64,000 nt of DNA from Seriola aureovittata (Eukaryota > Chordata > Actinopteri > Carangiformes > Carangidae), in contig NC_079375.1 in the NCBI RefSeq assembly GCF_021018895.1, positions 24,467,475 to 24,531,474 of the forward strand, given 5' to 3'. A program made the translations under genes and the position numbers. The notes under the pieces are model-generated. The model had not been told where the DNA came from, ran no database searches, and saw only the letters and a program-made list of their open reading frames with translations. How positions within the stretch are numbered: position 1 is the first letter of the stretch; the number at the start of each line of letters is the position of its first letter. This document shows, in pieces, positions 1 to 63,556 of this stretch.

Positions 1-171
1 TAAGAAAAACATGTATTTTACCATGACTGTTTATATTATAAACATGTGTTACATAAATATATATCCATCCCAAAGCCTGTCAATATATGTTTATATTATA
101 TATGTAAATATAAAAAAGAAACTTATATGTTTAAATTTCAATGAGAAATTATTTTTAAAAACTCATATACA
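1..171. other. AT-rich flank left of satellite array
   Basis: AT-rich sequence without the satellite monomer. It marks the left edge of the array. I see no gene here. If PAPPA2 is intact this is PAPPA2 intron. Confidence 0.5.
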
Positions 172-201
172 AACATGTCATAAGGCATTAAGATGTAAAA
201 A

Positions 202-229
202 AAAAAAAATATATATATATATATATATC
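202..229. repeat. poly-A then (AT)n tract
   Basis: A run of A followed by about ten AT dinucleotides at the degraded left edge of the array. Confidence 0.8.
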
Positions 230-310
230 ATATTAAGGAATAAAGACGAGTATAGTAAATCATAAAAAAAAGTCATACTATAGTAAGGCATAAAAATGTG
301 AAAAAAAAAC

Positions 311-322
311 ACCCTAACCCTA
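311..322. repeat. short telomere-like (CCCTAA)2 tract
   Basis: The sequence ACCCTAACCCTAAGG interrupts the first regular satellite units, giving two copies of the vertebrate telomere hexamer. It may be chance or a trace of end-joining repair. Confidence 0.5.
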
Positions 323-1100
323 AGGCATAGAGTTGTCATGGTATAATGAGGCATAAAATGTCAAAAAATGTCATAGTATAGTAAGACATAAAAATGTGAA
401 AAAAAAACGTCATAGTTTAGTAAGGCATAAAAATGTGAAAAAAAACGTCATAGTATAGTAAGGCATAAAAATGTGAAAAAAAACGTTATAGTATAGTAAG
501 GCATAGAGTTGTCATGGTATAATGAGCATTAAAATGTCCAAAAACGTCATAGTATAGTAAGGCATAGAAATGTCAAAAAATATCATAGTATAGTAAGGCA
601 TAAAATGTCAAAAAATGTCAAACTATAGTAATGCATAAAAGTGTCAAAAAACGTCATAGTATAGTAAGGCATAAAGTTGTCATGGTATAATGAGGCATAA
701 AATGTCAAAAAACGTCAAACTATAGTAATGCATAAAAATGTCAAAAAACGTCATAGTATAGTTAGGCATAAAATGTCAAAAAATGTAAAACTATAGTAAT
801 GCATAAAAGTGTCAAAAAACGTCATAGTATAGTAAGGCATAAAGTTGTCATGGTATAATGAGGCATAAAATGTCAAAAAACGTCAAACTATAGTAATGCA
901 TAAAAAAGTCAAAAAACGTCAAACTATAGTAAGGCATAAAAATGTGAAAAAAAAGTCATAGTATAGTAAGTCATAAAAATGTAAAAAAATGTCATAGTAT
1001 AGTAAGGCATAAAAACGTCATAGTCTAGTAAGGCATAAAATGTCAAAAAATGTCATACTATATTAATGCATAGAAATATCATACTATAATTACTACAATA

Positions 1101-1180
1101 CAGGGCTCGAACCCACAACCTTGTGAATGTGAAGCCTCTGTCATACCCATTGCGCTACCAAGGTAGCTCTTTGAAGCAGG
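1101..1180 (-). repeat. tRNA-derived cassette, type A (copy 1)
   Basis: Read on the minus strand this contains a Pol III A-box-like TAGCGCAATGG and a B-box-like GGTTCGAGCCC. The distance from T8 to T54 equals that of a tRNA. T33 is kept and the triplet at the anticodon position is CAC, so it looks weakly valine-like. Only one of four D-stem pairs forms and the acceptor stem is poor, so it is a tRNA-derived relic and not a working tRNA. It is flanked on both sides by satellite monomers. Confidence 0.7.
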
Positions 1181-2548
1181 TCAAAAAACTTCCTAATATT
1201 GTAAGGTATAAAATTGTCATGGTATAATAAGGCATAAAAATGTCAAAAAAACATCATAGTATAGTAAGGCATAAAAACGTCATGGTATAGTAAGGCATAA
1301 AAATGTAAAAAAATGTCATAGTATAGTAAGGCATAAAAATGTCATGCTATAGTAATGGATAAAAATGTCAAAAAACGTCAAACTACAGTAAGGCATAAAA
1401 ATGTGAAAAAAAACGTCATAGTATAGTAAGGCATAAAAATGTGAAAAAAAACGTCATAGTATAGTAAGGCATAAAAATGTCCAAAAACGTCATAGCATAG
1501 TAAGGCATAAAAATGTCAAAAAATGTCAAACTATAGTAATGCATAAAAGTGTCAAAAAACGTCATAGTATAGTAAGGTATAAAGTTGTCATGGTATAATG
1601 AGCATTAAAATGTCAAAAAATGTCAAACTATAGTAATGCATAAAAGTGTCAAAAAACGTCATAGTATAGTAAGGTATAAAGTTGTCATGGTATAATGAGG
1701 CGTAAAATGTCAAAAAACGTCATAGTATAGTAAGGCATAAAAATGTGAAAAAAAACGTCATAGTATAGTAAGGCATAAAAATGTCAAAAAACGTCATAGT
1801 ATAGTAAGGCATAGAGTTGTCATGGTATAATGAGCATTAAAATGTCCAAAAACGTCATAGTTTAGTAAGGCATAAAAATGTGAAAAAAAACGTCATAGTA
1901 TAGTAAGGCATAAAAATGTGAAAAAAAACGTTATAGTATAGTACGGCATAGAGTTGTCATGGTATAATGAGCATTAAAATGTCCAAAAGCGTCATAGTAT
2001 AGTAAGGCATAGAAATGTCAAAAAATATCATAGTATAGTAAGGCATAAAAATGTCAAAAAATGTCAAACTATAGTAATGCATAAAAGTGTCAAAAAACGT
2101 CATAGTATAGTAAGGCATAAAGTTGTCATGGTATAATGAGGCATAAAATGTCAAAAAACGTCAAACTATAGTAATGCATAAAAATGTCAAAAAACGTCAT
2201 AGTATAGTTAGGCATAAAAATGTCAAAAAATGTAAAACTATAGTAATGCATAAAAGTGTCAAAAAACGTCATAGTATAGTAAGGCATAAAGTTGTCATGG
2301 TATAATGAGGCATAAAATGTCAAAAAACGTCAAACTATAGTAATGCATAAAAATGTCAAAAAACGTCAAACTATAGTAAGGCATAAAAATGTGAAAAAAA
2401 AGTCATAGTATAGTAAGTCATAAAAATGTAAAAAAATGTCATAGTATAGTAAGGCATAAAAACGTCATAGTCTAGTAAGGCATAAAAATGTCAAAAAATG
2501 TCATACTATATTAATGCATAGAAATATCATACTATAATTACTACAATA

Positions 2549-2628
2549 CAGGGCTCGAACCCACGACCTTGTGAATGTGAAGCCTCTGTCATACCCATTG
2601 CGCTACCAAGGTAGCTCTTTGAAGCAGG
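2549..2628 (-). repeat. tRNA-derived cassette, type A (copy 2)
   Basis: This is the 1448-bp-offset duplicate of the copy at 1101, differing by one base near the anticodon arm. The A and B boxes are intact. Confidence 0.7.
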
Positions 2629-4822
2629 TCAAAAAACTTCCTAATATTGTAAGGTATAAAATTGTCATGGTATAATAAGGCATAAAAATGTCAAAAAAAC
2701 ATCATAGTATAGTAAGGCATAAAAACGTCATGGTATAGTAAGGCATAAAAATGTAAAAAAATGTCATAGTATAGTAAGGCATAAAAATGTCATGCTATAG
2801 TAATGGATAAAAATGTCAAAAAACGTCAAACTACAGTAAGGCATAAAAATGTGAAAAAAAACGTCATAGTATAGTAAGGCATAAAAATGTGAAAAAAAAC
2901 GTCATAGTATAGTAAGGCATAAAAATGTCCAAAAACGTCATAGCATAGTAAGGCATAAAAATGTCAAAAAATGTCAAACTATAGTAATGCATAAAAGTGT
3001 CAAAAAACGTCATAGTATAGTAAGGTATAAAGTTGTCATGGTATAATGAGCATTAAAATGTCAAAAAATGTCAAACTATAGTAATGCATAAAAGTGTCAA
3101 AAAACGTCATAGTATAGTAAGGTATAAAGTTGTCATGGTATAATGAGGCGTAAAATGTCAAAAAACGTCATAGTATAGTAAGGCATAAAAATGTGAAAAA
3201 AAACGTCATAGTATAGTAAGGCATAAAAATGTCAAAAAACGTCATAGTATAGTAAGGCATAGAGTTGTCATGGTATAATGAGCATTAAAATGTCCAAAAA
3301 CGTCATAGTATAGTAAGGCATAAAAATGTCAAAAAATATCATAGTATAATAAGGCATAAAAATGTGAAAAAACGTCATAGTATAATAAGGCATAAAAATG
3401 TCAAAAAACGTCATAGTATAGTAAGGCATAAAGTTGTCATGGTATAATGACGCATAAAATGTCAAAAAACGTCAAACTATAGTAATGCATAAAAATGTCA
3501 AAAAACTTCATAGTATAGTAAGGCATAAAAATGTCAAAAAATGTCAAACTATAGTAATGCATAAAAGTGTCAAAAAACGTCATAGTATAGTAAGGCATAA
3601 AGTTGTCATGGTATAATGAGGCATAAAATGTCAAAAAACGTCAAACTATAGTAATGCATAAAAATGTCAAAAAATGTCATAGTATAGTAAGACATAAAAA
3701 TGTGAAAAAAAAGTCATAGTATAGTAGGCATAAAAATGTGAAAAAAAACGTCATAGTATAGTAAGGCATAAAAATGTGAAAAAAAACGTCATAGTATAGT
3801 AAGGCATAAAAATGTCAAAAAACGTCATAGTATAGTAATGGATAAAAATGTCAAAAAACGTCAAACTATAGTAATGCATACAAATGTCCAAAAATGTCAT
3901 AGTATAGTAAGACATAAAAATGTGAAAAAAACGTCATAGTATAGTAAGGCATAAAAATGTGAAAAAAAACGTCATGGTATAGTAAGGCATAAAAATGTAA
4001 AAAAATGTCATAGTATAGTAAGGCATAAAAATGTCATGCTATAGTAATGGATAAAAATGTCAAAAAACGTTATAGTATAGTAAGGCATAAAAATGTGAAA
4101 AAAAAGTCATAGTATAGTAAGGCATAAAAATGTGAAAAAAAACGTCATAGTATAGTAAGGCATAAAAATGTCAAAAAACGTCATAGTATAGTAATGGATA
4201 AAAATGTCAAAAAACGTCAAACTATAGTAATGCATACAAATGTCCAAAAATGTCATAGTATAGTAAGACATAAAAATGTGAAAAAAACGTCATAGTATAG
4301 TAAGGCATAAAAATGTGAAAAAAAACGTCATAGTATAGTAAGGCATAAAAATGTGAAAAAAAACGTCATAGTATAGTAATGCATAAAAGTGTCAAAAAAC
4401 GTCATAGTATAGTAAGGCATAAAGTTGTCATGGTATAATGAGGCATAAAATGTCAAAAAACGTCAAACTATAGTAATGCATGAAAATGTCAAAAAACGTC
4501 ATAGTATAGTAAGGCATAAAAATGTGAAAAAAAAGTCATAGTATAGTAAGGCATAAAAATGTGAAAAAAAAGTCATAGTATAGTAAGGCATAAAAATGTA
4601 AAAAAAATGTCATAGTATAGTAAGGCATAAAAACGTCATGCTATAGCAATGGATAAAAATGTCAAAAAACGTTATAGTATAGTAAGGCATAAAAATGTGA
4701 AAAAAAACGTCATAGTATAGTAAGGCATAAAAATGTCAAAAAACGTCATAGTATAGTAAGGTATAAAGTTGTCATGGTATAATGAGGCATAAAAATGTCA
4801 AAAAACGTCAAACTATAGTAAT

Positions 4823-5330
4823 GCATACAAATGTCCAAAAATGTCATAGTATAGTAGGCATAAAAATGTGAAAAAAAACGTCATAGTATAGTAAGGCATA
4901 AAAATGTGAAAAAAAACGTCATGGTATAGTAAGGCATAAAAATGTAAAAAAATGTCATAGTATAGTAAGGCATAAAAATGTCATGCTATAGTAATGGATA
5001 AAAATGTCAAAAAACGTCAAACTATAGTAAGGCATAAAAATGTGAAAAAAAAACGTCATAGTATATAGTAAGGCATAAAAATGTGAAAAAAAAGTCATAG
5101 TATAGTAAGGCATAAAATGTAAAAAAAATGTCATAGTATAGTAAGGCATAAAAACGTCATGCTATAGCAATGGATAAAAATGTCAAAAAACGTTATAGTA
5201 TAGTAAGGCATAAAAATGTGAAAAAAAAACGTCATAGTATAGTAAGGCATAAAAATGTGAAAAAAAACGTCATAGTATAGTAAGGCATAAAAATGTGAAA
5301 AAAACGTCATAGTATAGTAAGGCATAGAGT
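4823..5330. repeat. segment duplicated at +3127 bp (copy 1)
   Basis: This block is near-identical to about 7950-8450. The antisense open frames at 4955-5149 and 8082-8276 translate identically and are offset by 3127 bp, which shows a duplication larger than the 568-bp unit. Confidence 0.75.
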
Positions 5331-6245
5331 TGTCATGGTATAATGAGCATTAAAATGTCAAAAAACGTCATAGTATAGTAAGGCATAAAAATGTCAAAAA
5401 ATATCATAGTATAGTAAGGCATAAAAATGTCAAAAAATGTCAAACTATAGTAATGCATAAAAGTGTCAAAAAACGTCATAGTATAGTAAGGCATAAAGTT
5501 GTCATGGTATAATGAGGCATAAAAATGTAAAAAAAATGTCATACTATAGTAATGCATAAAAATGTCAAAAAATGTCATAGTATAGTAAGACATAAAAATG
5601 TGAAAAAAAAGTCATAGTATAGTAAGGCATAAAAATGTGAAAAAAAACGTCATAGTATAGTAAGGCATAAAAATGTGAAAAAAAACGTCATAGTATAGTA
5701 AGGCATAAAAATGTCAAAAAACGTCATAGTATAGTAATGGATAAAAATGTCAAAAAACGTTCAAACTATAGTAATGCATACAAATGTCCAAAAATGTCAT
5801 AGTATAGTAAGACATAAAAATGTGAAAAAAACGTCATAGTATAGTAAGGCATAAAAATGTGAAAAAAAACGTCATAGTATAGTAAGGCATAAAAATGTGA
5901 AAAAAAACGTCATAGTATAGTAATGCATAAAAGTGTCAAAAAACGTCATAGTATAGTAAGGCATAAAGTTGTCATGGTATAATGAGGCATAAAATGTCAA
6001 AAAACGTCAAACTATAGTAATGCATAAAAATGTCAAAAAATGTCATAGTATAGTAAGACATAAAAATGTGAAAAAAAAGTCATAGTATAGTAAGGCATAA
6101 AAATGTGAAAAAAAACGTCATAGTATAGTAAGGCATAAAAATGTGAAAAAAAAAACGTCATAGTATAGTAAGGCATAAAAATGTCAAAAAACGTCATAGT
6201 ATAGTAATGGATAAAAATGTCAAAAAACGTCAAACTATAGTAATG

Positions 6246-8250
6246 CATACAAATGTCCAAAAATGTCATAGTATAGTAAGACATAAAAATGTGAAAAAAA
6301 CGTCATAGTATAGTAAGGCATAAAAATGTGAAAAAAAACGTCATAGTATAGTAAGGCATAAAAATGTGAAAAAAAACGTCATAGTATAGTAATGCATAAA
6401 AATGTCAAAAAACGTCATAGTATAGTAAGGCATAAAGTTGTCATGGTATAATGAGGCATAAAATGTCAAAAAACGTCAAACTATAGTAATGCATGAAAAT
6501 GTCAAAAAAAACGTATAGTATAGTAAGGCATAAAAATGTGAAAAAAAAGTCAAAGTATAGTAAGGCATAAAAATGTAAAAAAAATGTTATAGTATAGTAA
6601 GGCATAAAAACGTCATGCTATAGCAATGGATAAAAATGTCAAAAAACGTTATAGTATAGTAAGGCATAAAAATGTGAAAAAAAACGTCATAGTATAGTAA
6701 GGCATAAAAATGTGAAAAAAAAACGTCATAGTATAGTAAGGCATAAAAATGTCAAAAAACGTCATAGTATAGTAATGGATAAAAATGTCAAAAAACGTCA
6801 AACTATAGTAATGCATACAAATGTCCAAAAATGTCATAGTATAGTAAGACATAAAAATGTGAAAAAAAACGTCATAGTATAGTAAGGCATAAAAATGTGA
6901 AAAAAAACGTCATGGTATAGTAAGGCATAAAAATGTAAAAAAATGTCATAGTATAGTAAGGCATAAAAATGTCATGCTATAGTAATGGATAAAAATGTCA
7001 AAAAACGTCAAACTATAGTAAGGCATAAAAATGTGAAAAAAAAACGTCATAGTATATAGTAAGGCATAAAAATGTCAAAAAACGTCATAGTATAGTAAGG
7101 CATAAAGTTGTCATGGTATAATGAGGCATAAAATGTCAAAAAACGTCAAACTATAGTAATGCATAAAAATGTCAAAAAATGTCATAGTATAGTAAGACAT
7201 AAAAATGTGAAAAAAAAGTCATAGTATAGTAAGGCATAAAAATGTGAAAAAAAACGTCATAGTATAGTAAGGCATAAAAATGTGAAAAAAAACGTCATAG
7301 TATAGTAAGGCATAAAAATGTCAAAAAACGTCATAGTATAGTAATGGATAAAAATGTCAAAAAACGTCAAACTATAGTAATGCATACAAATGTCCAAAAA
7401 TGTCATAGTATAGTAAGACATAAAAATGTGAAAAAAAACGTCATAGTATAGTAAGGCATAAAAATGTGAAAAAAAACGTCATAGTATAGTAAGGCATAAA
7501 AATGTGAAAAAAAAACGTCATAGTATAGTAATGCATAAAAATGTCAAAAAACGTCATAGTATAGTAAGGCATAAAGTTGTCATGGTATAATGAGGCATAA
7601 AATGTCAAAAAACGTCAAACTATAGTAATGCATGAAAATGTCAAAAAACGTCATAGTATAGTAAGGCATAAAAATGTGAAAAAAAAGTCAAAGTATAGTA
7701 AGGCATAAAAATGTAAAAAAAATGTTATAGTATAGTAAGGCATAAAAACGTCATGCTATAGCAATGGATAAAAATGTCAAAAAACGTTATAGTATAGTAA
7801 GGCATAAAAATGTGAAAAAAAACGTCATAGTATAGTAAGGCATAAAAATGTGAAAAAAAACGTCATAGTATAGTAAGGCATAAAAATGTCAAAAAACGTC
7901 ATAGTATAGTAATGGATAAAAATGTCAAAAAACGTCAAACTATAGTAATGCATACAAATGTCCAAAAATGTCATAGTATAGTAAGACATAAAAATGTGAA
8001 AAAAACGTCATAGTATAGTAAGGCATAAAAATGTGAAAAAAAACGTCATGGTATAGTAAGGCATAAAAATGTAAAAAAATGTCATAGTATAGTAAGGCAT
8101 AAAAATGTCATGCTATAGTAATGGATAAAAATGTCAAAAAACGTCAAACTATAGTAAGGCATAAAAATGTGAAAAAAAAACGTCATAGTATATAGTAAGG
8201 CATAAAAATGTGAAAAAAAAGTCATAGTATAGTAAGGCATAAAATGTAAA
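6246..8250. repeat. ~568 bp higher-order repeat units
   Basis: The rare variant CATACAAATGTCCA occurs at 6246, 6813, 7383 and 7951, a spacing of 567, 570 and 568 bp (about 15 monomers). The surrounding variants keep the same order. Earlier, less regular occurrences are at 3887, 4233, 4823 and 5777. Confidence 0.8.
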
Positions 8251-8813
8251 AAAAATGTCATAGTATAGTAAGGCATAAAAACGTCATGCTATAGCAATGG
8301 ATAAAAATGTCAAAAAACGTTATAGTATAGTAAGGCATAAAAATGTGAAAAAAAACGTCATAGTATAGTAAGGCATAAAAATGTGAAAAAAAACGTCATA
8401 GTATAGTAAGGCATAAAAATGTGAAAAAACGTCATAGTATAGTAAGGCATAGAGTTGTCATGGTATAATGAGCATTAAAATGTCCAAAAACGTCATAGTA
8501 TAGTAAGGCATAAAAATGTCAAAAAATATCATAGTATAGTAAGGCATAAAAATGTCAAAAAATGTCAAACTATAGTAATGCATAAAAGTGTCAAAAAACG
8601 TCATAGTACAGTAAGGCATAAAGTTGTCATGGTATAATTAGGCATAAAATGTCAAAAAACGTCATAGCATAGTAAGGCATAAAAATGTCAACGTCATAGT
8701 CTAGTAAGGCATGAAAATATCAAAAAACGTCATAGTCTAGTAAGGCATAAAAATGTCAAAAAATGTCATACTATATTAATGCATAGAAATATCATACTAT
8801 AATTACTACAATA

Positions 8814-8893
8814 CAGGGCTCGAACCCACGACCTCGTGAATGTGAAGCCTCTGTCATACCCACTGCGCTACCAAGGTAGCTCTTTGAAGCAGG
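8814..8893 (-). repeat. tRNA-derived cassette, type A (copy 3)
   Basis: Same cassette with two substitutions relative to copy 1; both boxes are recognisable. No B cassette follows it. Confidence 0.7.
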
Positions 8894-9501
8894 TCAAAAA
8901 ACTTCCTAATATTGTAAGGTATAAAATTGTCATGGTATAATAAGGCATAGAAATGTCAAAAAAAACATCATAGTAAAGTAAGGCATAAAAACGTCATGCT
9001 ATAGCAATGGATAAAAATGTCAAAAAATGTCATAGTATAGTAAGGCATAAAAATGTCATGCTATAGTAATGGATAAAAATGTCAAAAAACGTCAAACTAT
9101 AGTAAGGAATAAAAATGTGAAAAAAAACGTCATAGTATAGTAAGGCATAAAAATGTCCAAAAACGTCATAGTATAGTAAGGCATAAAAATGTCAAAAAAT
9201 ATCATAGTATAGTAAGGCATAAAAATGTCAAAAAATGTCAAACTATAGTAATGCATAAAAGTGTCAAAAAACGTCATAGTACAGTAAGGCATAAAGTTGT
9301 CATGGTATAATTAGGCATAAAATGTCAAAAAACGTCATAGCATAGTAAGGCATAAAAATGTAAAAAAAATGTCAAAAAACGTCATAGTCTAGTAAGGCAT
9401 GAAAATATCAAAAAACGTCATAGTCTAGTAAGGCATAAAAATGTCAAAAAATGTCATACTATATTAATGCATAGAAATATCATACTATAATTACTACATT
9501 A

Positions 9502-9581
9502 CAGGGCTCGAACCCACGACCTTGTGAATGTGAAGCCTCTGTCATACCCATTGCGCTACCAAGGTAGCTCTTTGAAGCAGG
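9502..9581 (-). repeat. tRNA-derived cassette, type A (copy 4)
   Basis: Same cassette, 688 bp from copy 3. It is followed 229 bp later by a B cassette, forming a composite A-B pair. Confidence 0.7.
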
Positions 9582-9730
9582 TCAAAAAACTTCCTAATAT
9601 TGTAAGGTATAAAATTGTCATGGTATAATAAGGCATAAAAATGTCAAAAAAAACATCATAGTATAGTAAGGCATAAAAACGTCATGGTATAGTAAGGCAT
9701 AAAATAGTCATGGTTTAGTAACGCATAAAC

Positions 9731-9870
9731 GTCTTGAAGCATCTAAGTTTTGTAGGGTACATAACAAACTTTTGTATAGGAAGGCAGATGCCGTATGGAG
9801 TTCGAACCCATGACCTTGTCAATGTGAGACCTCAGTCGTACCCATTGGACTACCATGGCAGCTCTTTGAC
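9731..9870 (-). repeat. tRNA-derived cassette, type B (copy 1)
   Basis: On the minus strand: a tRNA-like head with A-box-like TAGTCCAATGG and B box GGTTCGAACTCC, then an unrelated body of about 60 bp ending in CTTCAAGAC, which is SINE-like architecture. Three of four D-stem pairs form, T33 is kept, and the anticodon-position triplet is CAC. The cassette is 140 bp long in most copies. Confidence 0.7.
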
Positions 9871-10859
9871 ATATGTGAAAAAACGTCATATTATTGTAAG
9901 GCATTAAAATATCAAACAAACGTCATAGTATAGTAAGGCATAAACTTGTCAAAGTATAATAAGGAATAAAAATGTCAAAAAATGTCATAGTATAGTAAGG
10001 CATTTGAAAGTCATGCTATAGTAATGGATAAAAATGTCAAAAAACGTTAAACTTTAGTAATGCATAAAAATGTCAAAAAACGTCATAGTATAGTAAGGCA
10101 TAAAAATGTGAAAAAAAACGTCATAGTATAGTAAGGCATAAAAATGTGAAAAAAAACGTCATAGTATAGTAAGGCATTAAAATATCAAAAAAACGTCATA
10201 GTATAGTAAGGCATAAAAATGTGAAAAAAAACGTCATAGTATAGTAAGGTACAAAAATGTCAAAAAACGTCATAGTATAGTAAGGCATAAAAATGTGAAA
10301 AAAAACGTCATAGTATAGTAAGGCATAAAAATGTGAAAAAAACGTCATAGTATAGTAAGGCATAAAAATGTCAAAAAACGTCATAGTATAGTAAGGCATA
10401 GAGTTGTCATGGTATAATGAGCATTAAAATGTCAAAAAACGTCATAGTATAGTAAGGCATAAAAATGTCAAAAAACGTCATAGTATAGTAAGGCATAGAG
10501 TTGTCATGGTATAATGAGCATTAAAATGTCCAAAAACGTCATAGTATAGTAAGGCATAAAAATGTCAAAAAATATCATAGTATAGTAAGGCATAAAAATG
10601 TCAAAAAATGTCAAACTATAGTAAGGCATAAAAGTGTCAAAAAACGTCATAGTACAGTAAGGCATAATGTTGTCATGGTATAATTAGGCATAAAATGTCA
10701 AAAAACGTCATAGCATAGTAAGGCATAAAAATGTCAACGTCATAGTCTAGTAAGGCATGAAAATATCAAAAAACGTCATAGTCTAGTAAGGCATAAAAAT
10801 GTCAAAAAATGTCATACTATATTAATGCATAGAAATATCATACTATAATTACTACAATA

Positions 10860-10935
10860 CAGGGATCGAACCCACGACCTTGTGAATGTGAAGCCTCTGT
10901 CATACCCATTGCGCTACCAAGGTAGCTCTTTGAAG
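10860..10935 (-). repeat. tRNA-derived cassette, type A (copy 5)
   Basis: Same cassette with a B-box change (GGGATCGAA on the plus strand) and an altered border that replaces GCAGG with A-rich sequence. A B cassette starts 236 bp later. Confidence 0.65.
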
Positions 10936-11095
10936 AAAAAGAAAAGTCAAAAAACTTCCTAATATTGTAAGGTATAAAATTGTCATGGTATAATAAGGCA
11001 TAAAAATGTCAAAAAAAACATCATAGTATAGTAAGGCATAAAAACGTCATGGTATAGTAAGGCATAAAATAGTCATGGTATAGTAACGCATAAAT

Positions 11096-11235
11096 GTCTT
11101 GAAGCATCTAAGTTTTGTAGGGTACATAACAAACTTTTGTATAGGAAGGCAGATGCCGTATGGAGTTCGAACCCATGACCTTGTCAATGTGAGACCTCAG
11201 TCGTACCCATTGGACTACCATGGCAGCTCTTTGAC
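11096..11235 (-). repeat. tRNA-derived cassette, type B (copy 2)
   Basis: Nearly identical to the B copy at 9731 and paired with the A copy at 10860. Confidence 0.7.
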
Positions 11236-11342
11236 ATATGTGAAAAAACGTCATATTATTGTAAGGCATTAAAATATCAAACAAACGTCATAGTATAGTA
11301 AGGCATAAACTTGTCAAAGTATAATAAGGAATAAAAATGTCA

Positions 11343-11840
11343 AAAAAATGTCATAGTATAGCAAAGCATAAATGTCTTGAAGCATCTAAGTTTTGTAGGG
11401 TACATAACAAACTTTTGTATAGGAAGGCAGATGCCATACTGAGTTTGAACCCACGATCTTGTAAATGTGAAACCTCAGTCGTACCCATTGCACTACCATG
11501 GCAGCTCTTTGACTGACATCAAAAAACGTCATAGTATAGTAAGGCATTGAGTTGTCATGGTATAATGAGCATAAAAATGTCAAAAAACGTCATAGTATAG
11601 TAAGGCATAAAAATGTGAAAAAAAACGTCATAGTATAGTAAGGCATAAAAATGTGAAAAAAAACGTCATAGTATAGTAAGGCATAAAAATGTGAAAAAAA
11701 ACGTCATAGTATAGTAAGGCATAAAAATGTCAAAAAACGTCATAGTATAGTAAGGCATAGAGTTGTCATGGTATAATGAGCATTAAAATGTCAAAAAACT
11801 GTCATAGTATAGTAAGGCATAAAAATGTAAAAAAATGTCA
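11343..11840. repeat. segment duplicated at +2277 bp (copy 1), includes a B cassette
   Basis: About 490 bp including the B cassette at 11374 recur at 13620-14117. The antisense frames at 11386-11583 and 13663-13860 translate identically. Confidence 0.8.
11374..11513 (-). repeat. tRNA-derived cassette, type B (copy 3)
   Basis: A B subtype with a TAGTGCAATGG A box and a GGTTCAAAC B box. A five-pair acceptor remnant (GCCAT with ATGGC) is visible on the minus strand. It is not preceded by an A cassette. Confidence 0.7.
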
Positions 11841-12574
11841 TAGTATAGTAAGGCATTTGAAAGTCATGCTATAGTAATGGATAAAAATGTCAAAAAACGT
11901 TAAACTATAGTAATGCATAAAAATGTCAAAAAACGTCATAGTATAGTAAGGCATAAAAATGTGAAAAAAAACGTCATAGTATAGTAAGGCATAAAAATGT
12001 GAAAAAAAACGTCATAGTATAGTAAGGCATAAAAATGTCAAAAAATGTCAAAAAAAACATCATAGTATAGTAAGGCATAAAAATGTCAAAAAACGTCATA
12101 GTATAGTAAGGCATAGAGTTGTCATGGTATAATGAGCATTAAAATGTCCAAAAACGTCATAGTATAGTAAGGCATAAAAATGTCAAAAAACGTCATAGTA
12201 TAGTAAGGCATAGAGTTGTCATGGTATAATGAGCATTAAAATGTCCAAAAACGTCATAGTATAGTAAGGCATAAAAATGTCAAAAAATATCATAGTATAG
12301 TAAGGCATAAAAATGTCAAAAAATGTCAAACTATAGTAATGCATAAAAGTGTCAAAAAACGTCATAGTACAGTAAGGCATAACGTTGTCATGGTATAATT
12401 AGGCATAAAATGTCAAAAAACGTCATAGCATAGTAAGGCATAAAAATGTCAACGTCATAGTCTAGTAAGGCATGAAAATATCAAACAACGTCATAGTCTA
12501 GTAAGGCATAAAAATGTCAAAAAATGTCATACTATATTAATGCATAGAAATATCATACTATAATTACTACAATA

Positions 12575-12653
12575 CAGGGATCGAACCTACGACCTTGTGA
12601 ATGTGAAGCCTCTGTCATACCCATTGCGCTACCAAGGTAGCTCTTTGAAGCAG
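12575..12653 (-). repeat. tRNA-derived cassette, type A (copy 6)
   Basis: Same cassette with two B-box-region changes; paired with a B cassette 229 bp later. Confidence 0.65.
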
Positions 12654-12803
12654 CTCAAAAAACTTCCTAATATTGTAAGGTATAAAATTGTCGTGGTATA
12701 ATAAGGCATAAAAATGTCAAAAAAAACATCATAGTATAGTAAGGCATAAAAACGTCATGGTATAGTAAGGCATAAAATAGTCATGGTATAGTAACGCATA
12801 AAT

Positions 12804-12943
12804 GTCTTGAAGCATCTAAGTTTTGTAGGGTACATAACAAACTTTTGTATAGGAAGGCAGATGCCATACTGAGTTTGAACCCACGATCTTGTAAATGTGA
12901 AACCTCAGTCGTACCCATTGCACTACCATGGCAGCTCTTTGAC
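12804..12943 (-). repeat. tRNA-derived cassette, type B (copy 4)
   Basis: Same B subtype as the copy at 11374, but here it sits in an A-B pair. Confidence 0.7.
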
Positions 12944-13650
12944 TGACATCAAAAAACGTCATAGTATAGTAAGGCATTGAGTTGTCATGGTATAATGAGC
13001 ATTAAAATGTCAAAAAACGTCATAGTATAGTAAGGCATTTAAATGTCAAAAAACGTCATAGTATAGTAAGGCATAAAAATGTCAAAAAATGTCAAACTAT
13101 AGTAATGCATAAAAGTGTCAAAAAACGTCATAGTATAGTAAGGCATAAAGTTGTCATGGTATAATGAGGCATAAAATGTCAAAAAACGTCAAACTATAGT
13201 CATGCATAAAAATGTCAAAAAACGTCAAACTATAGTAATGCATAAAAATGTAAAAAAACGTTATAGTATAGTAAGGCATAAAAATGTCAAAAAACGTTAT
13301 AGTATAGTAAGGCATAAAAATGTGGAAAAAAACGTCATAGTATAGTAAGGCATAAAAATGTGAAAAAAAACGTCATAGTATAGTAAGGCATAGAGTTGTC
13401 ATGGTATAATGAGCATTAAAATGTCCAAAAACGTCATAGTATAATAATGCATAAAAATGTCAAAAAACGTTATAGTATAGTAAGGCATAAAAATGTGAAA
13501 AAAAAAGTCATAGTATAGTAAGGCATAAAAATGTGAAAAAAAACGTCATAGTTTAGTAAGGCATAAAAATGTCAAAAAATGTCATAGTATAGTAAGTCAT
13601 AAAAATGTCAAAAAATGTCAAAAAATGTCATAGTATAGCAAAGCATAAAT

Positions 13651-13790
13651 GTCTTGAAGCATCTAAGTTTTGTAGGGTACATAACAAACTTTTGTATAGG
13701 AAGGCAGATGCCATACTGAGTTTGAACCCACGATCTTGTAAATGTGAAACCTCAGTCGTACCCATTGCACTACCATGGCAGCTCTTTGAC
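13651..13790 (-). repeat. tRNA-derived cassette, type B (copy 5)
   Basis: Duplicate of the copy at 11374 at an offset of 2277 bp, carried inside a larger duplicated block. Confidence 0.7.
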
Positions 13791-15119
13791 TGACATCAAA
13801 AAACGTCATAGTATAGTAAGGCATTGAGTTGTCATGGTATAATGAGCATAAAAATGTCAAAAAACGTCATAGTATAGTAAGGCATAAAAATGTGAAAAAA
13901 AACGTCATAGTATAGTAAGGCATAAAAATGTGAAAAAAAACGTCATAGTATAGTAAGGCATAAAAATGTGAAAAAAAACATCATAGTATAGTAAGGCATA
14001 AAAATGTCAAAAAACGTCATAGTATAGTAAGGCATAGAGTTGTCATGGTATAATGAGCATTAAAATGTCAAAAAACTGTCATAGTATAGTAAGGCATAAA
14101 AATGTAAAAAAATGTCATAGTATAGTAAGGCATAAAAACGTCATGCTATAGTAATCGATAAAAATGTCAAAAAACGTCAAACTATAGTAATGCATAAAAA
14201 TGTCAAAAAACGTTATACTATAGCAAGGCATAAAAATGTGAAAAAAAACGTCATAGTATAGTAAGGCATAAAAATGTAAAAAAATGTCATAGTATAGTAA
14301 GACATAAAAATGTCAAAAAACGTTATAGTATAGTAAGTCATAAAAATGTAAAAAAATGTCATAGTATAGTAAGGCATAAAAACGTCATGCTATAGTAATC
14401 GATAAAAATGTCAAAAAACGTCAAACTATAGTAATGCATAAAAATGTCAAAAAACGTTATACTATAGCAAGGCATAAAAATGTGAAAAAAAACGTCATAG
14501 TATAGTAAGGCATAAAAATGTCAAAAAACGTTATAGTATAGTAAGGCATAAAAATGTGAAAAAAAACATCATAGTATAGTAAGGCATAAAAATGTGAAAA
14601 AAAAAGTCATAGTATAGTAAGGCATAGAGTTGTCATGGTATAATGAGCATTAAAATGTCCAAAAACGTCATAGTATAGTAAGGCATAAAAATGTCAAAAA
14701 ACGTCAAACTTTAGTAACGCATAAAAATGTCAAAAAACGTCATAGTATAGTAAGGCATAAAAATTTTAAAAAATGTCAAAGTATAGTAAGGCATAAAAAT
14801 GTGAAAAAAAAGTCATAGTATAGTAAGGCATAAAAATGTGAAAAAACAGTCATAGTATAGTAAGGCATAAAAATGTGAAAAAATGTCATAGTATAGTAAG
14901 GCATAAAAACGTCATGCTATAGTAATGGATAAAAATGTCAAAAAACGTCAAACTATATTAATGCATAAAAATGTCAAAAAACGTTATAGTATAGTAAGGC
15001 ATAAAAATGTGAAAAAAAAGTCATAGTATAGTAAGGCATAAAAATGTGAAAAAAATGTCATAGTATAGTAAGGCATAAAAATGTCAAAAAACTTCATAGT
15101 ATAGTAAGGCATAGAGTTG

Positions 15120-15317
15120 TCATGGTATAATGAGCATTAAAATGTCCAAAAACGTCATAGTATAGTAAGGCATAAAAATGTCAAAAAATATCATAGTATA
15201 GTAAGGCATAAAAATGTCAAAAATTGTCAAACTATAGTAATGCATAAAAGTGTCAAAAAACGTCATAGTATAGTAAGGCATAAAGTTGTCATGGTATAAT
15301 GAGGCATAAAATGTCAA
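15120..15317. repeat. segment duplicated at +2314 bp (copy 1)
   Basis: The same variant order recurs at 17434-17631; the antisense 65-codon frames differ at a single residue. Confidence 0.7.
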
Positions 15318-17790
15318 AAAACGTCAAACTATATTAATGCATAAAAATGTCAAAAAAACGTCATAGTATAGTAAGTCATAAAAAGGTAAAAAAACGTCAT
15401 AGTGTAGTAAGGCATAAAAATGTCAAAAAAAAGTCATAGTATAGTAAGGCATAGAGTTGTCATGGTATAATGAGCATTAAAATGTCCAAAAACGTCATAG
15501 TATAGTAAGGCATAAAAATGTCAAAAAATGTCATAGTATAGTAAGGCATAAAAACGTCATGCTATAGTAATGGATAAAAATGTCAAAAAACGTCAAACTA
15601 TAGTAATGCATAAAAATGTCAAAAAACGTTATAGTATAGTAAGGCATAAAAATGTGAAAAAAAACGTCATAGTATAGTAAGGCATAAAAATGTCAAAAAA
15701 CGTCATAGTATAGTAAGGCATAGAGTTGTCATGGTATAATGAGCATTAAAATGTCAAAAAACTGTCATAGTATAGTAAGGCATAAAAATGTCAAAAAACG
15801 TCATAGTATAGTAAGGCATAGAGTTGTCATGGTATAATGAGCATTAAAATGTCCAAAAACGTCATAGTATAGTAATGCATAAAAATGTCAAAAAACGTTA
15901 TAGTATAGTAAGGCATAAAAATGTGAAAAAAAACGTCATAGTATAGTAAGGCATAAAAATGTGAAAAAAAACGTCATAGTATAGTAAGGCATAAAAATGT
16001 CAAAAAACGTTATAGTATAGTAAGGCATAAAGATGTAAAAAAATGTCATAGTATAGTAAGGCATAAAAACGTCATGCTATAGTAATCGATAAAAATGTCA
16101 AAAAACGTCAAACTATAGTAATGCATAAAAATGTCAAAAAACGTTATACTATAGTAAGGCATAAAAATGTGAAAAAAAACGTCATAGTATAGTAAGGCAT
16201 AAAAATGTCAAAAAACGTTATAGTATAGTAAGGCATAAAAATGAGAAAAAAAACGTCATAGTATAGTAAGGCATAAAAATGTGAAAAAAAACGTCATAGT
16301 ATAGTAAGGCATAGAGTTGTCATGGTATAATGAGCATTAAAATGTCCAAAAACGTCATAGTATAGTAAGGCATAAAAATGTCAAAAAATATCATAGTATA
16401 GTAAGGCATAAAAATGTCAAAAAACGTCAAACTTTAGTAACGCATAAAAATGTCAAAAAACGTCATAGTATAGTAAGGCATAAAAATGTGAAAAAACAGT
16501 CATAGTATAGTAAGGCATAAAAATGTAAAAAAAAATTCATAGTATAGTAAGGCATAAAAATTTGATAAAAATGTCATAGTATAGTAAGTCATAAAAATGT
16601 AAAAAAATGTCATAGTATAGTAAGGCATAAAAACGTCATGCTATAGTAATGGATAAAAATGTCAAAAAACGTTATAGTATAGTAAGGCATAAAAATGTAA
16701 AAAAATGTCATAGTATAGTAAGGCATAAAAACGTCATGCTATAGTAATGGATAAAAATGTCAAAAAACGTTATAGTATAGTAAGGCATAAAAATGTGAAA
16801 AAAAACGTCATAGTATAGTAAGGCATAAAAATGTCAAAAAACGTCATAGTATAGTAAGGCATAGAGTTGTCATGGTACAATGAGCATTAAAATGTCCAAA
16901 AACGTCATAGTATAGTAAGGCATAAAAATGTCAAAAAATATCATAGTATAGTAAGGCATAAAAATGTCAAAAAATATCATAGTATAGTAAGGCATAAAAA
17001 TGTGAAAAAATGTCATAGTATAGTAAGGCATAAAAATGTGAAAAAAAAGTCATAGTATAGTAAGGCATAAAAATGTGAAAAAAAACGTCATGGTATAGTA
17101 AGGCATAAAAATGTGAAAAAAAATGTCAAACAATAGTAATGCATCAAAGTGTCAAAAAACGTCATAGTATAGTAAGGCATAAAAATGTAAAAAAACGTCA
17201 TAGTATAGTTAGGCATAAAAATGTGAAAAAAAACGTCATAGTATAGTAAGGCATAAAGTTGTCATGGTATAATGAGGCATAAAATGTCAAAAAACGTCAA
17301 ACTATAGTAATGCATAAAAATGTCAAAAAAACGTCATAGTATAGTAAGTCATAAAAATGTAAAAAAACGTCATAGTATAGTAAGGCATAAAAATGTGAAA
17401 AAAAACGTCATAGTATAGTAAGGCATAGAGTTGTCATGGTATAATGAGCATTAAAATGTCCAAAAACGTCATAGTATAGTAAGGCATAAAAATGTCAAAA
17501 AATATCATAGTATAGTAAGGCATAAAAATGTCAAAAAATGTCAAACTATAGTAATGCATAAAAGTGTCAAAAAACGTCATAGTATAGTAAGGCATAAAGT
17601 TGTCATGGTATAATGAGGCATAAAATGTCAAAAAACGTCATAGTATAGTAAGGCATAAAAATGTCAACGTCATAGTCTAGTAAGGCATGAAAATATCAAA
17701 AAACGTCATAGTATAGTAAGGCATAAAAATGTCTTAAAAATGTCATACTATATTAATGCATAGAAATATCATTCTATAATTACTACAATA

Positions 17791-17869
17791 CAGGGCTCGA
17801 ACCCACGACCCTGTCAATGTGAAACCTCTGTCATACCCATTGCGCTACCAAGGTAGCTCTTTGAAGCAG
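17791..17869 (-). repeat. tRNA-derived cassette, type A (copy 7)
   Basis: Same cassette with a few substitutions; followed 228 bp later by a B cassette. Confidence 0.65.
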
Positions 17870-18018
17870 CTCAAAAAACTTCCTAATATTGTAAGGTATA
17901 AAATTGTCATGGTATAATAAGGCATAAAAATGTCAATAAAACATCATAGTATAGTAAGGCATAAAAACGTCATGGTATAGTAAGGCATAAAATTGTCATG
18001 GTATAGTAACGCATAAAT

Positions 18019-18158
18019 GTCTTGAAGCATCTAAGTTTTGTAGGGTACATAACAAACTGTTGTATAGGAAGGTAGATGCCATATGGAGTTCGAACCCATG
18101 ACCTTGTCAATGTGAGACCTCAGTCGTACCCATTGGACTACCATGGCAGCTCTTTGAC
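18019..18158 (-). repeat. tRNA-derived cassette, type B (copy 6)
   Basis: Close to the copies at 9731 and 11096, and the last member of an A-B pair. Confidence 0.7.
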
Positions 18159-18404
18159 ATATGTCAAAAAACGTCATATTATTGTAAGGCATTAAAATAT
18201 CAAACAAACGTCATAGTATAGTAATGCATAAAAATTTCAAAAAAACGTCATAGTATAGTAAGGCATAAACTTGTCAAAGTATAATAAGGAATAAAAATGT
18301 CAAAAAAAACATCATAGTATAGTAAGGCATAAATATGTAAAAAAATGTCAAAGTATAGTAAGGCCTAAAAATGTCAACGTCATAGTATAGTAAGGCATAA
18401 ATAC

Positions 18405-18542
18405 GTCTTGAAGCATCTAAATTTTGTAGGATACCTAACAAAGTATTGTACAGGAAAGGAGGTGTCATACTGGGTTCGAAGCCACGAACTGGTCAATGGG
18501 AAACATCATTCATACCCATTGCACTACCATAGCTGTTCTTTG
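18405..18542 (-). repeat. tRNA-derived cassette, type B (copy 7), diverged
   Basis: Clearly related to the other B cassettes but with many substitutions, in the decayed right edge of the array. Confidence 0.6.
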
Positions 18543-18884
18543 TTGTAAGTCAAAAAACTTCATAGTATAGTAAGACATTAAAAATTATCATAGTATAATA
18601 TGGCATGAAAACGTCAAATGATGTCATAGTATAGTAAGGCATAAAAATGTGAAAAAAACGTCATAGTATAGTAAGGCATAAAAATTTCAAAAAACGTCAC
18701 AGTATAAAAATGTCAACAAATGTCAAAGTATATTAAGGCATAAAAATATCAAAAAACATCATAGTATATTAAGGCATAAAAACTTTAAAAAAAAGTAACA
18801 GTCTATTAAGGCATAAAATTGTCATAGTGTAGTAAGGCATAAAAATATCCAAAAAAATGTCATAGTATAGTAAAGCATAAATAT

Positions 18885-19023
18885 GTCTTAAAGCATCTAA
18901 ATTTTGTAAGGTACATAATGAACTATTGTATAGGAAGGCAGGTGCAATACAGGGTTCGAACTAATGACCTTGACAATGTGAAACCTCATTCATACCTATT
19001 GCACTACCATGGTTGTTCCTTGA
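18885..19023 (-). repeat. tRNA-derived cassette, type B (copy 8), diverged
   Basis: A second diverged B cassette at the edge of the array. A GGTTCGAA-type B box is still visible on one strand (AGGGTTCGAACTAATG on plus). Confidence 0.6.
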
Positions 19024-19174
19024 TGTACATCAAACAACTTCATAGTTTAACAAGGTATAAAAATGTCAACAAATGTCAAAGTATAGTTAGGCATAAAAAT
19101 GTCAAAAAAATTTGTCATAGTATAGTAATGCATAAAAATGTCAAAAATGTTATAGTATAGTAACACAAAAAAGT

Positions 19175-19345
19175 CAGTTAGAGTTGCCAATTAACCTAAT
19201 GTCTATGTCTTTTCACTGTGGGAGGAAGGCGGAGTATCCGGAGAGAATCCACACAGGCACAGGGAGAACATGCAAACTCTACCCAGAAAGGCCCCAGGGT
19301 TGTGTTCAAAACCAGAATCTTCTCACTGTGAGGCAACAGTGATTC
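19175..19345. repeat. dispersed teleost repeat fragment
   Basis: It contains the stretches CCAATTAACCTAATG, TGTGGGAGGAAGGCGGAGTA, AGAACATGCAAACTCTACCC and CAGAAAGGCCCCAGG. I recognise this as a very common dispersed fish sequence. I am not sure of the family name, so none is given. It abuts the right edge of the satellite. Confidence 0.6.
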
Positions 19346-20639
19346 TCTTTTCAGAACCTTGAATGATTGCTTTAGTTCTCTCATACGAGCTAAGAGAAGA
19401 AAAAAACATGTCTTTAAATTTCTACACCACAGCTTCAGTCTGATGTCAAAAAAAACCATCTGCATGCTCACCTGTGTTTCATAGCTTAATGGATATATGT
19501 GGATCCCAATGATATATTGTCTGACACTGAGGCTCAAAATACCCTTTAAAAATGTTATTCCTCAGAAATCTAAGTCAGGTGTGGAGCTTCTGTGTGGTGT
19601 GGTAAAGACTGTAAAAGCACAAAGAGCAGTTAGACATATTGAGGGCAGATCCATCTCAATCAAAAAAATAACAGAAATGTGGGAGAACGCCTGGATATAC
19701 GGGAAGTGTCTGCAACAGAACCAGGGCCATGAATTAGACATTGCTTCAGTTGTGGCCAGAGGATTTTGTGTAAGCACAAATTTATGCATCAGTATTTGTA
19801 ACAAGCTCCTGTCTTTTGTCTGTCTTTTTTGGTTGCTTGCGACTAACTGCTTTTGAAATGATACCCATAATGGTTTTTGAGAGAAACATCCAGTCACAAA
19901 GCTTAAAATTCTTAAATTTGCTGGAAAAATCCATCTGTATCTGTTAACTTGTGGCTGGATAAGATAAGGATCTGACTTTGTGGCTCTGACAGGAGTCCTG
20001 TCTATAGTACAGTGGGATAACCCAGAGCTGTGAGCTTAACACTTGCCAACTGAACAGCTTTAAACGTCTGGACTTTGAGGCACTAGCTACATTGATTTCT
20101 GCAGCTGTTTTCAAAGGGAAGCTCTTGGGTGAAAAGAATTTACGTTGTTTCTGTCTATGCGTAGCTTAGCTGTTTCAACTTCCAGTCTTCCGACATTTCA
20201 CCAGAAGTTTCGTCTTCAGTGCAGATCGGAGGCTACAGTGAGTCGCTATCGAAAAGTGACGAGACGGGCTGGGGCTAGCTGGTTAGCATGCTAACTTCAA
20301 CAGAAAAAAAGACGTGATAGAGACGAGAGTTAACATTGGCGTTGCTTTCCATAGCTGGAGACAGCTACTTGCTGAGTAAAGGAATGAACACACAACGTTT
20401 CTTCTAGACTGGTAAATTAACAGCTGTTAATGCTAACGCTAGCTATGCAACAATACCAAAACTTAGTTATACGACCTGACATGGCTGACATAACAAACAG
20501 AGGGAATACATCTGAAATATTATAAATCGTTGGAAAAAAGTGTAAATTATACTCCAAGTATAATTAACACTTCTGTTTTTGATGTGCTGTGAGAAATAAT
20601 GTCGTGTCACTGTGATTATCATTATGGACTGAGACTTAC
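19346..20639. other. PAPPA2 intron 10, proximal part
   Basis: Unique-looking sequence between the dispersed repeat and PAPPA2 exon 10. I searched the minus strand for the next pappalysin exon and found none. The open frames here show no recognisable protein. Confidence 0.6.
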
Positions 20640-20822
20640 TGGAAGAGATGTAGGTGACCCAGAGGGTGAGTGCATGCGGGACAATGGGGTGAAGGAATCT
20701 CAGAGTCAGGGTGCAGCCCTCCGTGTCGGGGCAAGGTGATGTCACATTAGTGTCGTAAAGGCTGAGCTCAGGACTCCACGCCTGGAGACTGGGATCACAG
20801 GGCTGCTCCACATCAGGTGGGC
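20640..20822 (-). CDS. pappa2: pappa2 coding exon 10, last in window
   Basis: Acceptor GCCAG|GCCCACC completes a glycine and gives [11 protein letters not shown]. It continues with [19 protein letters not shown] and ends at the donor TTCCA|GTAAGT, one base into a codon. The partner exon would lie beyond the satellite. Confidence 0.9.
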
Positions 20823-51404: not shown

Positions 51405-51446
51405 CTAGCCAACCTGCTAAAGCAGCCAAATAGCAGCACTGTCCGG

Positions 51447-51455
51447 ATGCTTTGA
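51447..51455 (+). other. minimal upstream ORF 3 (ATG CTT TGA)
   Basis: A three-codon uORF (Met-Leu-stop) that ends 43 bp before the COP1 ATG. Confidence 0.4.
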
Positions 51456-51498
51456 GCAGCAACGCAGCGGATTTTGGGGAGTTTCTTGTCGGCCTTGC

Positions 51499-63556
<12,058 letters not shown>

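Follow-up and report, generated by a model that had tools for sequence, protein, structure and literature searches.

The window analysed here is a 64,000-nucleotide stretch of Seriola aureovittata DNA (contig NC_079375.1, positions 24,467,475 to 24,531,474; G000:C12:24467475-24531474 in our designation, 647-Mb genome). Its left part is a minisatellite array in which 15 tRNA-like cassettes are embedded, each beginning with a tRNA-like head. This array very probably forms the core of a dispersed-element copy in which a tRNA-derived passenger was captured once and then co-amplified with the repeat. Passive capture and co-amplification is the likeliest explanation of the cassettes, and no function of the heads is required by anything found.

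The minisatellite array and its tRNA-like cassettes

A reading made from the sequence alone had described a minisatellite at window positions 172-19170, and this was borne out, with periods of 26 and 36-38 bp, by Tandem Repeats Finder (TRF) and by monomer anchors. TRF reported one array at 335-17771 with a period of 36, plus further stretches as far as 19163. Monomer-like letters begin at about 176 and the first clear anchor lies at 290. The 464 anchored monomers are spaced at 36 (184), 38 (75), 26 (68) or 37 bp (49), 412 of 472 spacings being classed overall. Between 1000 and 18200, where 381 monomers were classed, mean identity to the consensus was 0.911. The array, a long duplication inside it (strand not assigned) and the cassettes are as follows.

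177-19170, minus strand: minisatellite array of 26/36-38-bp monomers, very probably the core of this element copy (TRF, monomer anchors)
403-3372: 1.5-kb higher-order duplication with the type I heads 1103 and 2551 (self-comparison)
1094-1174, minus strand: type I tRNA-like head
2542-2622, minus strand: type I tRNA-like head
8807-8887, minus strand: type I tRNA-like head
9496-9575, minus strand: type I tRNA-like head
9724-9870, minus strand: type II cassette (IIa), consisting of a head and two degenerate monomers
10853-10933, minus strand: type I tRNA-like head
11089-11235, minus strand: type II cassette (IIa)
11366-11513, minus strand: type II cassette (IIb)
12568-12648, minus strand: type I tRNA-like head
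12796-12943, minus strand: type II cassette (IIb)
13643-13790, minus strand: type II cassette (IIb)
17784-17864, minus strand: type I tRNA-like head
18012-18158, minus strand: type II cassette (IIa)
18399-18543, minus strand: type II cassette (IIc), divergent, at the array edge
18879-19023, minus strand: type II cassette (IId), divergent, at the array edge

All 15 cassettes lie on the minus strand. The B boxes of the seven type I cassettes have their low coordinates at 1103, 2551, 8816, 9504, 10862, 12577 and 17793, and those of the eight type II cassettes at 9798, 11163, 11441, 12871, 13718, 18086, 18472 and 18952. In every cassette the B box starts 44 nt after the start of the A box. With TRGYNNARYNGG and GGTTCRANYCC, which we take to be the A-box and B-box consensus, the A boxes agree at 12 of 12 positions in all 15 cassettes, and the B boxes at 11 of 11 in the seven type I and at 10 of 11 in the eight type II copies. 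At least 15 minus-strand cassettes of two types, with tRNA-exact box spacing in the copies examined, had been claimed before, and 15 were confirmed.

The cassettes are otherwise no longer recognizable as tRNA. In the window, ARAGORN reported 0 tRNAs and Rfam gave 0 matches at gathering score, and 0 at E≤1 in positions 1-20000. When single copies were searched, a type II copy matched the Rfam tRNA family with E 1.5 and 14.1 bits, where the gathering score is 29, and a type I copy had no Rfam match. A functional tRNA gene or a known RNA family was rejected on the negative ARAGORN and Rfam results, apart from this weak type II match. Folding of five of the 15 heads gave z-scores from -0.59 to +0.06. 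The heads were also compared with six human tRNAs, shuffles being run for Arg only. The type I head scored 19 with Arg-TCT and 18 with Lys-CTT, against a shuffled maximum of 12. Among the four type II heads compared, IIa, IIb and IId scored above the shuffled maximum against one tRNA or more, whereas IIc fell below it (6 vs 8). In the explanation we favor, the A and B boxes were inherited from the tRNA-derived element.

No TTTT occurs between the boxes. The first run of at least four T comes 107 nt past the A-box start in type I and 147-155 nt past it in type II, and any RNA polymerase III (Pol III) transcript would be expected to end there. At the junction of head and satellite, some copies hold perfect short palindromes, as at 18153-18168 (TTTGACATATGTCAAA) and 19020-19033 (TTGATGTACATCAA); the letters between the outer arms differ among subtypes. 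Close to the left edge of the array, positions 312-323 (CCCTAACCCTAA) hold two telomere-type hexamers.

Cassettes are in satellite register and were copied with their surroundings

In both cassette types the head is followed, in the register of the satellite, by one 26-mer and one 36-mer. The tails agree with this pair at 48-50 of 62-63 columns in type I and at 39-45 of 64 in type II. In the register test, 0 of 1000 shuffles reached the score of any of the eight distinct sequences, and 2238 genomic windows scored 4 or less, compared with 10-36 for the cassette tails. Because the type II tail is an in-register 26-mer and 36-mer, the apparent SINE (short interspersed element) body of type II is two decayed monomers. 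The 5′ junction falls at one satellite position in 15 of 15 cassettes, save for a few extra bases in the cassette at 10862.

The long duplications seen in self-comparison copy heads together with what surrounds them. For example, 403-1926 and 1848-3372 are 99.1% identical over 1527 columns. Moreover, type I and type II heads are paired 293-301 bp apart at four places. Between subtypes, heads diverge by up to 36% outside the boxes (19 of 53 sites, type I vs IIc).

The minisatellite is the core of a dispersed element family

The element that holds the array starts at C12:24466844, which is 631 bp to the left of the window; its boundary there is sharp, at CAAGGG. Its left arm enters the window as follows.

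1-176, plus strand: left arm of the dispersed element, inner part (matches to sister copies; outer part C12:24466844-24467474)

When the outer 262 bp of this arm were searched in the genome, 531 candidates appeared at a first look and 40 were scored, at 79-84% (the query itself aside), on many contigs. Mean pairwise identity among 12 copies (66 pairs) was 0.40 over the 80 nt before CAAGGG and 0.83 over the 80 nt after it; the pair L047/L048 was exceptional, with 0.78 upstream. Stretches of the arm about 570-809 from the terminus matched L043 at 83.8%, L049 at 81.0%, L050 at 79.7%, L047 at 78.3% and a second array on C12 (locus 2, below) at 75.2%.

The minisatellite was found in 15 of 15 loci taken as 3-kb slices, one of them the window array and one (L031) with inverted monomers only. 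It was also present in 10 of 10 sister slices of 5 kb, drawn as the best-scoring and not at random from the 39 other scored matches, and there it starts about 280-1100 bp from the terminus. Since all ten sister slices hold it, the satellite is the core of the family. Array lengths across sister copies range from about 1 to more than 9 kb, and in the six copies extended to 10 kb, which were chosen among slices whose array reached the slice end, the array continues to the end of the slice in all six. Minisatellite segments inverted inside the same element copy were seen in L052:1600-3900, L031, L036 and L041, suggesting foldback arrays in some copies.

Both ends of an element were seen at locus 3 (L022:1392-2604), where the right end is inverted. 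The ends read CAAGGGCGTAGGTTTG and CAAGGGTGAAGGTTTG and agree at 14 of their first 16 bases, and the flanks GACGGATT and GATGGATT form an 8-bp pair alike at 7 of 8 positions. The family with terminus CAAGGGCGTAGGTTTGGTCT is probably a non-autonomous cut-and-paste DNA transposon. An 8-bp target duplication is typical of hAT elements, and we infer a hAT-like class for the family.

This head was found at three loci on one contig

A genome search with the type I head gave 9 matches and one with cassette IId gave 12, which together define three loci, all on C12. The search tool skips very common words, so these head counts are lower bounds, and a free-standing form of very high abundance could have escaped it. 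There are 15 head copies in the window array (locus 1), two in locus 2 and one in locus 3. The two heads of locus 2 (C12:23790113-23790505) lie inside a 13.7-kb array at 23778919-23792587 with 406 anchors, and the tail of the first aligns ungapped over 62 columns with the 26-mer and 36-mer, the best position in a scan of ends. Locus 3 (C12:20623391-20623520) has one head, with degenerate boxes, among 12-15 monomers, the count depending on the pattern used. Between the left arms of loci 1 and 2, identity is 79% in a stretch of 145 bp and 75% in one of 234 bp; for loci 1 and 3 the value is 84%, over 67 bp only.

The head has one orientation relative to the satellite at all three loci, and no copies outside arrays were seen among the 9 and 12 matches of a search that skips very common words. 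This head was absent from the sampled sister arrays that carry the repeat. The earlier idea that satellite and cassettes form one unit thus did not hold, the satellite being the core of a dispersed transposon-like family and the head having been found at three loci only.

A course of events consistent with these results can be proposed. The minisatellite is very probably ancestral to the sampled family members and grows in place, to more than 9 kb in several copies. A tRNA-derived element probably entered the array once, in a lineage on C12. Head and in-register 26-mer/36-mer would then have been copied with flanking monomers by unequal exchange or slippage, the outcome being the 15 cassettes here, two in the second array and one in the third. 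Transposition or segmental duplication may have spread the composite to the two further C12 sites.

Other tRNA-derived passengers in sister copies

The six 10-kb sister copies were scanned for box pairs with one B-box mismatch allowed, and two of them carry tRNA-derived cassettes of other kinds, likewise with A and B boxes. L050 (on C15; L050:1676-5000 and L058) has five copies with a spacing of 64, on the strand opposite to that of the window heads, and they did not match the head profiles. L044 (joined with L055) has two cassettes, at 6511 and 9463, which lie 2952 bp apart and are identical over 210 bp, with flanks matching at 288 of 292 and 299 of 300 positions. The L044 cassettes match the head profile weakly, with E 7e-6 at best, as would be expected of tRNA relatives. 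Further weak profile matches were found in L039 (E 0.0014), L043 (E 0.088), L044 (E 0.1) and L030 (E 0.092). A looser scan with two B-box mismatches would be expected to find about 1.3 box pairs per 50 kb of order-1 shuffled sequence.

ARAGORN found no tRNA in 13 sister loci, and the Rfam scan of sister slices gave one match only at E≤0.1, to a sub-threshold miRNA family in L052. With both programs silent on them, the L044 and L050 cassettes are recognized by box patterns and sequence alone. Together, the window, L050 and L044 cassettes suggest that capture and co-amplification seemingly occurred at least three times in the family.

Conservation of the boxes and alternative explanations

Head mismatches were pooled over five successive type I pairs out of seven, the remaining two overlapping those; the eight type II pairs were left out, as their flanks are mostly without clean homology. 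The heads had 13 mismatches in 448 positions and were more diverged than the 60-bp flanks, which had 10 in 879 (Fisher p 0.026). With 150-bp flanks (30 in 1743), p was 0.12. The heads are no better conserved than their flanks, indicating that they are unprotected between recent copies. Within recent clades of the array, 2 of 23 box sites and 8 of 53 other sites were variable (Fisher p 0.71).

On the deep branches, fewer changes fell in the boxes. For the following permutation tests, p-values are uncorrected for four tests and each rests on one tree. With the 15 window heads, 10 changes were counted in 23 box sites vs 35 in 50 others (p 0.11; 0.029 for 19 specified sites). With the two heads of locus 2 added, the counts were 13 in 23 vs 55 in 54 (p 0.038; specified sites 0.0099). 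Constraint before or early after capture fits this pattern, and past or weak constraint on the boxes is conceivable. The comparison of substitution rates inside and outside the boxes, proposed in the sequence-only reading, came out in two parts, with no excess box conservation among recent copies and a modest deep-branch deficit.

Several results weigh against capture and co-amplification in a transposon-borne array. With 18 heads, locus 3 included, the boxes show 18 changes in 23 sites vs 71 in 54 on the deep branches (p 0.029); for the 19 specified sites p is 0.008, for the A box alone 0.057 and for the B box alone 0.26, and the all-box-site value drops as heads are added, from 0.11 (15) through 0.038 (17) to 0.029 (18). 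The 26-mer/36-mer target of the register test was picked after the sequence had been read, so that its margin counts and not its p-value. When the last 8 nt are removed, 1 of 1000 shuffles attains the IIc score, and in local alignment the IIc tail is unlike the monomer (534 of 2000 shuffles equal it), although the register test did find likeness. The second head of locus 2 has a shortened tail and is out of register. As to the element, both ends were seen in one copy only, that at locus 3; no right end was found at the window locus; and the right-end pattern had only two matches in the six 10-kb copies, both within the tRNA-derived cassettes of L044. In addition, the locus 3 right arm had no match in the other slices, the outer 119 bp of the locus 2 left arm were not found, and the L048 array stops after about 1.1 kb.

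The best-surviving alternative, quite unlikely in our judgment, is that the heads persist because they bind TFIIIC or act as boundaries, or because they are Pol III units whose transcripts stop at satellite T-runs. The retention of boxes and spacing by all 15 cassettes, the deep-branch deficit (p 0.03 to 0.008, uncorrected) and the T-runs at 107 or 147-155 nt with no TTTT between the boxes would all be consistent with it. However, recent copies show 2 of 23 box sites against 8 of 53 others variable and no better conservation of heads than of flanks. Each of the eight type II B boxes is off consensus by one base, the 13.7-kb array of locus 2 has only two heads, the locus 3 boxes are degenerate, and the L050 cassettes lie on the opposite strand. 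The sequence-only reading had offered kept boxes and passive amplification of a captured SINE side by side. The former was not supported within the array, apart from the modest deep-branch deficit. The latter is favored by the common register of all 15 cassettes, the co-duplicated flanks of hundreds of bp, the lack of recent excess conservation and the passengers of sister arrays. A present function of the boxes is conceivable, and one in TFIIIC binding or as boundaries found no support.

An origin of the satellite from a tRNA-derived SINE tail, with the heads as remnants of the founder, is very unlikely. In-register monomers follow each window head, and satellites derived from SINEs have been described in reptiles (PMC10702118). 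This origin was attractive from the monomer and tail data and was dropped once the satellite appeared in every sister slice: the minisatellite is in 10 of 10 of them and this head was found only at the three C12 loci. Independent insertion of an active SINE family at each locus and cassette has likewise very little probability and was rejected on the satellite register, since orientation is the same in all 15 window cassettes, as is the register on both sides (with the few extra bases at 10862), and no copies lie outside arrays among the 9 and 12 matches (lower bounds), although subtypes differ by up to 36% outside the boxes and other tRNA-derived elements do occur in sister arrays.

Relation to known systems

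Transposons with satellite-growing internal repeats and tRNA-like segments in satellites are both already known. In Drosophila virilis, internal repeats of the foldback transposon Tetris grow into satellites (TIR-220; PMC4079207). Like Tetris, the family described here would be a non-autonomous DNA transposon whose internal tandem repeats expand in place to kb-size arrays. Tetris repeats, on the other hand, are about 220 bp and lie within terminal inverted repeats (PMC4079207). In the present family the repeats measure 26/36 bp, come after a left arm of about 280-1100 bp and carry captured tRNA-derived elements. CgHINE Helentrons of Crassostrea gigas and pearl elements are likewise dispersed and non-autonomous with a central tandem-repeat array (PMC9659126). 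They are classed as Helentron or pearl elements (PMC9659126), while in the present family the single complete copy shows inverted ends together with a near-match 8-bp duplication.

The squamate SINE-derived satellites also have tRNA-derived promoter sequence inside tandem arrays, but there a part of the SINE serves as repeat unit (PMC10702118), whereas here the unit comes from a different element, with the tRNA-like part as an insertion. OAX/satellite I of Xenopus, PolIII/TAN of newt, Rana/polIII and Hy/polIII are tandem repeats said to hold a tRNA-like segment, which is doubted for Hy/polIII (PMC10702118). In these every unit, about 200-360 bp long in three of the four, includes the tRNA-like part (PMC10702118); here 15 heads stand among about 464 monomers. 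In searches of open-licence papers, repeat libraries not included, no listed title or abstract opening named this family, and no paper was found for the sequence itself. Exact patterns found no foreign relatives in viral and prokaryotic contig collections.

These results explain a puzzling satellite without appeal to function, and they caution that A and B boxes kept at tRNA spacing within satellites can be mere passengers. They also point to a transposon-like family in which all sampled copies have one minisatellite and several arrays exceed 9 kb. This amounts to a natural experiment, with one minisatellite at independent sites, in which growth, inversion and passenger capture can be compared copy by copy. 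A wider generalization is doubtful: a vertebrate transposon family might seed often many-kb minisatellite arrays at possibly hundreds of sites, trapping and amplifying tRNA-derived Pol III promoter elements, so that Pol III- or TFIIIC-competent arrays would recur and some, as beside PAPPA2 exons, might keep weakly constrained boxes.

Gene setting and neighboring sequences

PAPPA2 is placed on the minus strand by the frames 26277-26585 and 20467-20838, which match pappalysin-2 best, and Laminin_G_3 and LNR domains were found in frames adjoining these. The cassettes had been said to run in the same sense as PAPPA2, and the two minus-strand frames agree with that. The array lies downstream of the frame 20467-20838, within a PAPPA2 intron if the gene is intact to the left of the window. 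Beside PAPPA2, plus-strand frames at 51421-62271 resemble COP1/RFWD2; a domain search gave no family for one of these frames and WD40-type matches for another.

The right edge of the array is abutted by a remnant that we label 'SINE-B'.

19171-19362, minus strand: 'SINE-B', remnant of a different tRNA-related element, abutting the array (weak matches)

It matches the head weakly (E 0.0037). Window positions 19205-19299 match L010:9637-9731 over 95 bp at 85%, and this match lies in L010:9631-9941, an insertion in the left arm of that copy which is not in sisters such as L043. Related sequence stands at the array end in L048 (77%) and within the array in L050 (79%).

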